This document shows, piece by piece, positions 7,876 to 10,182 of a stretch of 52,399 nucleotides of DNA. This DNA comes from a bacterium (GTDB taxonomy: Bacteria > Myxococcota_A > UBA9160 > UBA6930). The stretch covers positions 1 through 52,399 of the forward strand of contig JAAETT010000175.1 of assembly GCA_024228115.1 (NCBI GenBank), read 5' to 3'. Numbering within the stretch: position 1 is the first letter of the stretch; each line of letters starts with the position of its first letter. The position numbers were made by a program, and so were the translations under genes. The notes beneath the pieces are model-generated. The model did no database searches. It saw nothing but the letters and a program-made list of their open reading frames with translations, and was not told where the DNA came from.

Positions 7876-9021
7876 TCAGAGGACGGGCTGCTTCGGGTTC
7901 TCTCCGGTTTCGTAGTAGGCCTCGACGCGTTGAGCGAGCTCGCGGACGCGAACGGGCAATCGATCCGGGCTCGGCCAGCGGGATGTAGCGACGCGCATCC
8001 GATCCAGGAGAGGCTGGGCCTCGGGATAGTCTTCTCGGGCCAGGACGTCGTCCACGGCCATCCAGTATTCGATGGCCGTGAGCGTACGTAGAGTCCGCTC
8101 CTCGAGCTCACTCATGCCGGGCGATGCGACCCCAGTGCCCTTTACCAACTCCGCCAGGGACCCGAGCCCGTCTCGCGCCTGGCGCAGGGGCCCACGCAAT
8201 TCACCCTCGGTCGTGGTGAGACATTCGATGATCTCCTCGAATCGACGCTTCAACGGCTCGTGGGAGATCTCGCGACCAAGGATCACCTGACCCAGCTCGC
8301 GGCCATCGGAGCTGAGCAGGGGATGCATCGTGACCCGCAGCTTCACTGCATCGCCACTCGGCAGCTCCACCTCCTCGTAGCTCACATTCTCATCCTGGCG
8401 GATCCGAATGACCGCACCACCGATCATGGTCAGGGCATCGGGCCGCAAAACGTCTTCGAGCCGGCGTCCGTGGGGATCGTCCTTGATACCGAGGTATCCA
8501 CGTGCAGGCGCGTTCACAGCGCGCACGATGCCGTTGGCATCCACGGCCAGTGCACCGGTATCGAGCTGATCCATCACCGCCTGCAAGAACGAATTCGAAT
8601 CCCGCAGATCCCCCACCAGGCGCTCGTTCTCCTCGGCGAGTGCGTAGTGCTCGACCGCCCGCCGAACGATCTGCTTCAGATCGTCCGGCTCCCAGGGCTT
8701 GGTGATATAGGCATAGACGTGGCCATCGTTGATCGAGCCGATGATCGCGTCCATGTCCGCGAAGCCCGTCAGGATGATCCGGACAGTGGTCGGATGGCGC
8801 TCGAAAACCTTGGCGAGAAACTCGACACCGGTCATCTCCGGCATCCGCTGATCCGAGATCACGACCGCGACCGAATCCTCCCGCTCCAGTAACTCCAACG
8901 CATTCGCGGCCGACGAGCTGGTGAGCACGTCGTAATCATCCTCGAACGAAAACGTCATCGTCTCGAGGATGGCTTCCTCGTCGTCAACGATGAGGATTCG
9001 AGGACGGGAGGCTTCGGACAT
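7876..9021 (-). CDS. response regulator: receiver domain plus PAS domain
   Basis: The start is set at the ATG at 9019-9021 (MSEASRPRILIVDDEEAI); the frame stays open upstream, but that part is low-complexity and crosses the folded element at 9074-9246. The product is 381 residues. The receiver (about 7-130) has the DDE acidic pocket, phospho-acceptor Asp57 (VVISDQRMPE), the LTG Thr position and a KPW lysine. This receiver type is usual in RpfG/HD-GYP-related and 'degenerate sensor' regulators. A PAS domain (about 150-265) and a helical tail follow. There is no DNA-binding, HD-GYP, GGDEF or kinase output. The tail or the neighbouring membrane protein may be the target. Confidence 0.85.
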   Translation of the reverse strand: MSEASRPRILIVDDEEAILETMTFSFEDDYDVLTSSSAANALELLEREDSVAVVISDQRMPEMTGVEFLAKVFERHPTTVRIILTGFADMDAIIGSINDGHVYAYITKPWEPDDLKQIVRRAVEHYALAEENERLVGDLRDSNSFLQAVMDQLDTGALAVDANGIVRAVNAPARGYLGIKDDPHGRRLEDVLRPDALTMIGGAVIRIRQDENVSYEEVELPSGDAVKLRVTMHPLLSSDGRELGQVILGREISHEPLKRRFEEIIECLTTTEGELRGPLRQARDGLGSLAELVKGTGVASPGMSELEERTLRTLTAIEYWMAVDDVLAREDYPEAQPLLDRMRVATSRWPSPDRLPVRVRELAQRVEAYYETGENPKQPVL

Positions 9022-9073
9022 CGGGGGGTAGGTTAGCTGTCTTGGTGGGGGGCCGCTTTGCTTCTCGGTGTGG

Positions 9074-9246
9074 ATCGCGGGGCGGGGGGCGGCCATCGCG
9101 GAATGGCTCGGCTGGGGCCTGGGAGGCCGCGTTCGAGTTGGACGCGGGTTCGCTTGCGCGGCTATCGCCGCTAGCGAACGAGCACACGTCCAACCAACGA
9201 GATGCCTGCGCTTTATTTCCGCGCTGACCGCCCCCCGCCCCGCGAT
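9074..9246 (+). repeat. folded repeat element A (173 nt), possible structured RNA or palindromic mobile element
   Basis: Ends 9074-9092 and 9228-9246 pair perfectly over 19 bp. After a 4x4 internal loop, CGCGGAA (9097-9103) pairs with TTCCGCG (9217-9223). Inside, GTTGGACG (9137-9144) pairs with CGTCCAAC (9187-9194). GTTCGCT (9148-9154) pairs with AGCGAAC (9173-9179) around a small hairpin GCGGC-TATC-GCCGC. The motifs GCGGAATGGCTCGGC and TGCCTGCGCTTTATTTCCG lie beside the terminal stem and are shared with element B on the other strand. The strand given is the one whose motif order matches B read on the minus strand. Confidence 0.7.
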
Positions 9247-9272
9247 TTGTGTGGGAGAGGTACCTGGGCGAA

Positions 9273-9348
9273 TTGCCACCGAGGGATTTTTTGGGTGGAG
9301 GCAACGCCAACGTTGGTGGCGGCAAGCGCCCCCCGCGCCACCTCCACC
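9273..9348. repeat. overlapping hairpins between elements A and B
   Basis: GGTGGAGG (9294-9301) pairs with CCTCCACC (9341-9348), GGTGGCG (9315-9321) with CGCCACC (9336-9342), and TTGCC (9273-9277) with GGCAA (9300-9304). A CCAACGTTGG palindrome lies in the middle. These alternatives are mutually exclusive in part. Confidence 0.4.
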
Positions 9349-9424
9349 ATTCCCTCTTCATGAGCTGGGAGCATCGATCACAGAACCACCGCCAGATCCG
9401 GCGTCCATCTGCCAACGCCCCGAG

Positions 9425-9598
9425 CGCCGGTCCCGGGCGCAGGCCGGGCGGAAATGAAGCGCAGGCATAGGTCCCGTTCGGCGTGCGCGTAGGTTGCCCG
9501 CGGCGAAAGCCGCGAAGGGCAACACCCCGTCCAGCCCTATACGCGGCCACCCGAACCTCGGCCGAGCCATTCCGCCCGGCCTGTGCCCGGGACCGGCG
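9425..9598 (-). repeat. folded repeat element B (174 nt), inverted relative of element A
   Basis: The ends 9425-9456 and 9568-9598 are inverted repeats of 31-32 nt with one mismatch and one indel. Their sequence is unrelated to element A's ends. On the minus strand the element carries GCGGAATGGCTCGGC (9575-9561), GGCCGCGT and TGCCTGCGCTTCATTTCCG like element A. The central hairpin is GTTGCCC / GGGCAAC around GCGGC-TTTC-GCCGC (9493-9523), with the same three-nucleotide bulge as in A but different paired bases. Confidence 0.7.
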
Positions 9599-9630
9599 AC
9601 TACCAGGCCGTCATGAGAAGCGAAGCGGCC

Positions 9631-10182
9631 CTACCGGGCGGCGCGAGCCTCGGCCCTCTCTTCCCTGTCCTGGATTTTGCGCCGCAGCTCTTTCCTCTTC
9701 GCTTCGAGCTTGGGTGCCAGGCGAGCTTTGGCCGTATCGGTCCAGAAGCGCTGCTCACTGCCCTCGCGGAAAGCCTTGAACTTCCGGTAGCCCCAGAGCT
9801 CGTGCTCGAGATCGTCCTCGACAAACTTGATCATGATCGCGTCGTCCAGAAAACCCACCAGCGGGACGTCATCGGGAATCACGTCCTTGGGGTTGTCGAA
9901 GTAGGCCAGCGCGGCAACCGCTCGACTGATCACGGCCTTCGGCGCCTTGTACTGAAGATCGTTGACCATCATCATCAGATCTTCGAGGGAGTCGATCGCA
10001 TCGGAGACGAAGGTCGGAACCTTCGTGTTCACCCGAACCTCCTTGATCAGCTTCCGGACGCCCCTGGAGATCTTGGGCCAGTCTTCGGCGGAGGCATTCT
10101 TCTTGGCCGCCCGGTAGATCCGTTCGAAGTAGGCGGTATCCGACTCGTCCAGCGTGAACGAAATTCTCATCTTGCGGGCCAT
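9631..10182 (-). CDS. DUF1232 (YkvA-like) protein
   Basis: The product is 183 residues. Its centre carries the DUF1232 signature: AVAALAYFDNPKDVIPDDVP, then VGFLDDAIMIKFV and a conserved EL-x-x-Y-x-x-F stretch, at about residues 88-140. The C-terminus is a highly charged Arg/Lys/Glu helix. Family function is unknown, though many members are membrane-associated; this one shows no clear membrane helix. It lies 44 bp downstream of gshA on the same strand and may be the last gene of that run. The ATG at 10180-10182 has a GAGG-type ribosome site upstream. Confidence 0.85.
   Translation of the reverse strand: MARKMRISFTLDESDTAYFERIYRAAKKNASAEDWPKISRGVRKLIKEVRVNTKVPTFVSDAIDSLEDLMMMVNDLQYKAPKAVISRAVAALAYFDNPKDVIPDDVPLVGFLDDAIMIKFVEDDLEHELWGYRKFKAFREGSEQRFWTDTAKARLAPKLEAKRKELRRKIQDREERAEARAAR

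Follow-up and report, generated by a model that had tools for sequence, protein, structure and literature searches.

Integron attC sites are imperfect palindromes that combine a variable stem with a conserved fold, lie after genes, and are recognised as one folded strand. The palindromes of REP and REPIN elements are about 20-50 nt long (PMC8266576, PMC3733652). REP, REPIN and BIME sequences are located by stop codons at convergent and unidirectional 3' ends, and their hairpins are recognised in a strand-specific manner (PMC3116915, PMC3733652, PMC8266576). Template switching yields changes in contiguous, exactly complementary blocks without point-by-point selection, and such blocks are its published footprint (PMC8794818). 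Here we describe two large palindromes, A and B, in a window of 52,399 nt (the whole stretch of DNA that was analysed, contig JAAETT010000175.1 of assembly GCA_024228115.1), which have features in common with each of these systems and with MITEs.

Element A occupies positions 9074 to 9246 on the plus strand (173 nt) and element B positions 9425 to 9598 on the minus strand (174 nt), both read from motif M1 to motif M2. As described in the original prediction, they have in common, in the same order, GCGGAATGGCTCGG, a central GCGGCT..CGCCGC hairpin and TGCCTGCGCTT.ATTTCC, and the sequences of their terminal stems are unrelated. Each element folds from one end to the other (-116 kcal/mol for A and -123 kcal/mol for B). 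In A, the 5' arm of the terminal stem (9074 to 9099, plus), delimited by the fold and by pair counts on related elements, is followed by M1 (ATGGCTCG, 9103 to 9110), a central hairpin GTTCGCT...AGCGAAC (9148 to 9179) that is predicted by folding and present only in the long A/B types, M2 (CTGCGCTTTATTTCC, 9206 to 9220) and the folded 3' arm (9221 to 9246). On the minus strand, B displays the same succession of 5' arm (9574 to 9598), M1 (ATGGCTCG, 9563 to 9570), central hairpin GTTGCCC...GGGCAAC (9493 to 9523), M2 (CTGCGCTTCATTTCC, 9450 to 9464) and 3' arm (9425 to 9449); arms and hairpin were placed by folding, and its two motifs, like M2 of A, by motif pattern and alignment columns.

Rather than being independent elements, A and B face inward ('><') as the halves of a single composite repeat of about 0.5 kb, from 9051 to 9630. 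The composite is bounded on each side by an outer inverted repeat of 16 bp. The left one (GGCCGCTTTGCTTCTC, 9051 to 9066, plus) lies about 8 nt outside A, a spacing that is constant in nearly all copies, and is the inverse match of the right one (GAGAAGCGAAGCGGCC as read on the plus strand; 9615 to 9630, minus), which abuts the stop codon of the next gene. This gene (9631 to 10182, minus), for a DUF1232 protein, adjoins the composite with its 3' end; B comes after it and has the same orientation. On the other side, about 30 nt separate the left outer repeat from the start of a gene for a response regulator with a PAS domain (7876 to 9021, also on the minus strand). The spacer between A and B (9247 to 9424, 178 nt) is also found at the orthologous locus L103 of genome G003. 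It is about 150 nt above that of most copies, which is around 30 nt, and has an inverted repeat of its own, GGGTGGAGGC ... GCCACCTCCACC. The spacers on contigs C39 and C397 resemble it by eye, a likeness that was not significant when tested.

Further copies, which the original prediction expected, are numerous. In the source genome (G000, 6.4 Mb in 700 contigs) BLAST returned 86 pieces, and a covariance model derived from 33 diverse elements recognised about 36 whole or partial elements. The A> spacer <B arrangement recurs at a dozen or more loci of this genome, and the outer repeat GGCCGCTTCGCTTCTC ... GAGAAGCGAAGCGGCC encloses nearly all of its copies. Single forms are also present beside the composites. 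Parts of A and B are fused in one element, with the terminal stem sometimes broken, in the mosaics L021, L022 and L019 (contigs C333, C345 and C617). At L172 (2027-2394, contig C676 of G000) a B-type element is split by a long near-perfect palindrome (GCGGGGACGTTCTTTCCGATGTTTCCGTTACGGCCTTGGCAGG...), which probably represents the terminus of a different mobile element.

All five genomes of the genus carry the composite or a relative of it, and near-identical composites were found at non-orthologous loci of G000 and G003. In composites at two G003 loci (L156 and L157, contigs C217 and C223), the partner of the B element is of a third type, which is shorter, bears the motif AAGTAAAAGCGGAGCCAGG and also occurs as single copies in G004. 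Most copies in G002 are located at contig ends (C16, C22, C88, C99, C172, C210, C224 and C277); assemblies thus seem to break at the palindromes, and MAG copy counts are probably underestimates. Shorter relatives in other genera and families were retrieved by the two-motif pattern with free spacing, and since reversed-pattern controls gave only 0-1 matches, the recurrence of the A/B motifs is not due to chance. Of the 80 genomes from the order, 40 gave covariance-model matches at E<=0.01. In a sample of 379 genomes of the phylum, 38 were positive at E<=1e-4, all 38 from the same order, and no positive genome came from the other orders sampled at this threshold. The window and the elements of 12 other loci gave no Rfam match above the curated cut-off; at a relaxed E-value, weak chance matches to long hairpins only were obtained. 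The A/B palindromes are a real family, unclassified within the collections searched. A viral origin was rejected: at least 100 IMG/VR contigs matched the motif pattern, and the fold was present in 0 of the 80 matches listed, which are thus due to chance. Motif matches in G032 and G072 (L231 and L201) have no stem and were likewise excluded as chance.

Near-invariant columns across the order are restricted to M1 and M2, and both are shorter than the motifs first noted. In 81 distinct elements, M1 (ATGGCTCG) is conserved at 99-100% per column and M2 (CTGCGCTTNAYTTC) mostly at 94-100%. The two motifs lie on opposite sides of the GC-rich stem, at its inner foot, and have no complementarity over their length. 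The ungapped extent of the stem has a median of 27 bp, and elements are about 130-175 nt long. Stem sequences differ completely between lineages and copies, and the stems are nevertheless about 93% paired. A sequence-only alignment of the 33 diverse elements, whose rows were picked by motif and de-duplicated, without two stemless motif matches and two A/B hybrids, has 93.0% of its stem cells paired, 170 double-change cells compared with 52 after shuffling, and a covariation score of 0.839 compared with 0.200 in shuffled and 0.12-0.16 in slid controls. These values bear out the original observation of stems that are altered yet complementary. For 106 elements aligned by the model, an alignment that leans towards structure, pairing is 90.3% and the score is 0.816 compared with 0.185 after shuffling. 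When arms were swapped among 17 stem groups, the mean score was 20.7 with own arms and 7.0 across groups; two groups without a stem in this comparison are chance motif matches.

The variable stem, the conserved fold and the placement after genes are like those of integron attC sites. Unlike attC, the A/B elements are dispersed between ordinary chromosomal genes, often as '><' pairs, and have their motifs at the inner foot of the stem; the attC core GTTRRRY is spelled by none of the near-invariant columns in the 81 elements.

Some elements are located at orthologous loci of different species, and even genera, so that not every copy is a recent insertion. The locus of the window composite carries the composite in L103 and a short related hairpin in L104, and nothing recognisable was found at L105 and L106; compared with the window, the intergenic region of L104-L106 is empty or degenerate. 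L104, with its hairpin, is the closest to an empty locus, and no clean empty site was found. At two orthologous loci the composite is flipped relative to its flanks between species (L005, 1269-1693, versus L155, 1825-2226; and L015 versus L153), which suggests either an inversion between the outer repeats or an independent insertion in the other orientation.

Where both flanks match, the stems diverge far more than the flanks do. Nine orthologous pairs display 44 double changes in which Watson-Crick pairing is kept, as against 11 single-side changes; between L317 and L319, ten positions are altered in both arms, with no single-side change. Between L313 and L318, whose flanks are about 90% identical, GGGCA is replaced by AAACC in one arm and TGCCC by GGTTT in the other. 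The sequence just outside this stem and the inner motifs are unaltered, which indicates rewriting of the stem in situ, not replacement of the whole element. Orthologous stems vary in contiguous, multi-base, exactly complementary blocks with Watson-Crick pairing kept, like hairpins maintained by template switching (PMC8794818), and by this sequence pattern they point to template-switch copying between the arms. Template switching is a mutation mechanism and not an element family, and the A/B palindromes differ from such hairpins in their invariant non-palindromic motifs and many copies.

These block-wise changes weaken the inference from covariation to selection. The original prediction took changed but complementary stems as the mark of selected structure. 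This argument loses force for the stems, whose changes at orthologous loci fit template switching; selection is still needed for M1 and M2, which are invariant and non-complementary and cannot be explained by template switching. One might go further and regard the whole family as a mutational by-product, in which old palindromes have their arms homogenised by template switching and quasi-palindrome correction and the fold is unselected. In favour of this account are the exactly complementary blocks at orthologous loci, a pattern that template switching is well established to produce (PMC8794818). However, the near-invariance of non-complementary M1 and M2 throughout the order lies beyond arm correction, and neither the strand asymmetry of mismatches, described below, nor the fixed '><' order is explained. 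We regard the by-product account as improbable.

Mismatches within the stems bear on which strand folds. On the M1-to-M2 strand there are 84 A.C and 10 G.T mismatches, and clustering of the stems, which gives 26 groups, leaves 40 and 9 (p about 1e-5). Strand-symmetric mutation is expected to give equal numbers. Because an A.C mismatch reads as G.T on the opposite strand, it is the complement strand that tolerates wobble. The folding strand is thus probably the complement of the M1-to-M2 strand, in which the original prediction was written. The asymmetry fits either an RNA from the complement strand or DNA of which an enzyme reads a single strand, and strand-biased mutation could add to the A.C excess. 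The interiors and central parts fold somewhat better on the M1-to-M2 strand, G-rich, which counts against a simple one-strand story.

The elements favour convergent gene pairs and avoid divergent ones. De-duplicated counts from a simple ORF caller give 57 convergent, 53 codirectional and 5 divergent intergenic regions with an element, compared with 40, 76 and 42 among neighbouring regions without one (p=3e-7). Past codirectional stop codons, the elements start at a median of 33 nt. One element directly follows a tRNA (L247), and the stretch before another (L128), recognised by eye, is presumably the RNase P RNA gene. In codirectional regions the two orientations occur 27 and 17 times, with no significant bias (p=0.17); an early indication of sense orientation at 3' ends (39/49) is mostly due to convergent neighbours and was dropped on the wider count. 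All 23 pairs are arranged '><', including nine that lie between codirectional genes, so that this order is a property of the element and does not derive from the flanking genes. The coding sequences found between two elements in G044 and G056 are ordinary genes, orthologous to each other, and not a transposase.

The main rival to a mobile element is a structured RNA at transcript 3' ends, which we hold to be a real possibility. A long hairpin from the complement strand, with M1 and M2 as a protein-binding internal loop, would act in termination, in 3'-end protection or in blocking antisense read-through between convergent genes, and its spread would be incidental. Wobble tolerance on one strand only is as expected of RNA, and the short distance to codirectional stops, the positions after a tRNA and beside a putative RNase P RNA gene, the preference for convergent over divergent pairs and the persistence at orthologous sites also speak for it. 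However, wobble pairs, at about 3%, are rare for an RNA stem with such turnover, the orientation relative to codirectional neighbours has no significant bias, and REPs have the same 3'-end placement although they are mobile DNA (PMC3733652). An intrinsic terminator is ruled out, as the T-run after the stem is absent in either direction (TTTTT within 20 nt in 1/81 and 0/81 elements).

Like REP, REPIN and BIME sequences, the A/B palindromes are intergenic, multicopy, arranged as inverted doublets and placed in convergent or unidirectional contexts, and a strand-specific hairpin is equally REP-like (PMC3116915, PMC3733652, PMC8266576). If they were REP/REPIN elements in the strict sense, a RAYT (Y1 HUH) transposase would mobilise them. 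This identity, raised as a possibility in the original prediction, is not supported, and we judge it very improbable. The A/B family is about five times longer (130-175 nt, not 20-50 nt), its stem sequence is unconstrained even within one genome, and it is found in one order only. Its conserved motifs are others: only M1 and M2 are conserved in the 81 elements, and a GTAG or CGTC tag beside the palindrome is not. Nor is a Y1 transposase linked to it, as the 19 Y1-transposase loci checked have no significant element within 1.5 kb, and four element-bearing genomes (G012, G046, G065 and G066) gave no Y1_Tnp match at E<=1e-5. The strongest Y1 matches are proteins of 142-161 aa, a size that we take to be that of IS200-type TnpA.

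The composite is also like a MITE in being a few hundred bp long, multicopy, inverted at its ends and devoid of coding capacity. It could accordingly represent the ends of a DDE or serine/tyrosine-recombinase transposon, with the outer 16-bp inverted repeats as the recognised termini. Nearly all copies of genus g1 have this outer repeat, and the composite is copied as a unit and flipped between orthologous loci. Unlike a MITE, the composite contains two large internal palindromes with free stem sequence, and no autonomous partner was found: the outer-repeat matches in the 700 contigs of G000 include no gene-bearing copy. No target-site duplication is evident by eye in the aligned copies. The outer repeat, moreover, is not conserved beyond the genus and its nearest relative, whereas M1 and M2 are. 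Among the readings weighed here, we consider the MITE the least probable.

The reading that we favour, still tentatively, is a new order-wide family of large interspersed palindromes, REPIN/BIME-like but much enlarged, that is recognised by its shape through a putative trans-acting factor. With many copies and stems altered while pairing is kept, recognition by shape, as originally proposed, is the natural reading, and it suggests that what the cell or an enzyme reads is the folded shape rather than the sequence of the stem. In the mechanism that we envisage, a putative trans-acting protein would recognise the folded complement strand via M1, M2 and the shape of the helix, and this recognition would either spread copies of the doublet, as a non-autonomous element, to new sites or use it as a 3'-end site. 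No transposase, recombinase or binding protein for the elements was identified. Complementarity of the arms would be upheld by template switching between them during replication, and selection would purge copies that fail to fold; together these two processes would explain the block-wise, exactly complementary turnover at orthologous sites. A stronger version, which we regard as rather doubtful, is that the family is a new class of element, order-wide, read purely as one folded DNA strand via two invariant motifs, spread by an enzyme other than Y1, with stems that turn over by template switching faster than neighbouring genes diverge.

The family is a large, naturally occurring collection of palindromes in which the motifs are fixed and the stems free. 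Two questions thereby become directly testable: by what route the interspersed palindromes of bacteria spread when there is no RAYT, and whether template switching or point-by-point selection produces the compensatory changes of long stems. The family also cautions against taking strong covariation by itself as proof of a functional RNA.
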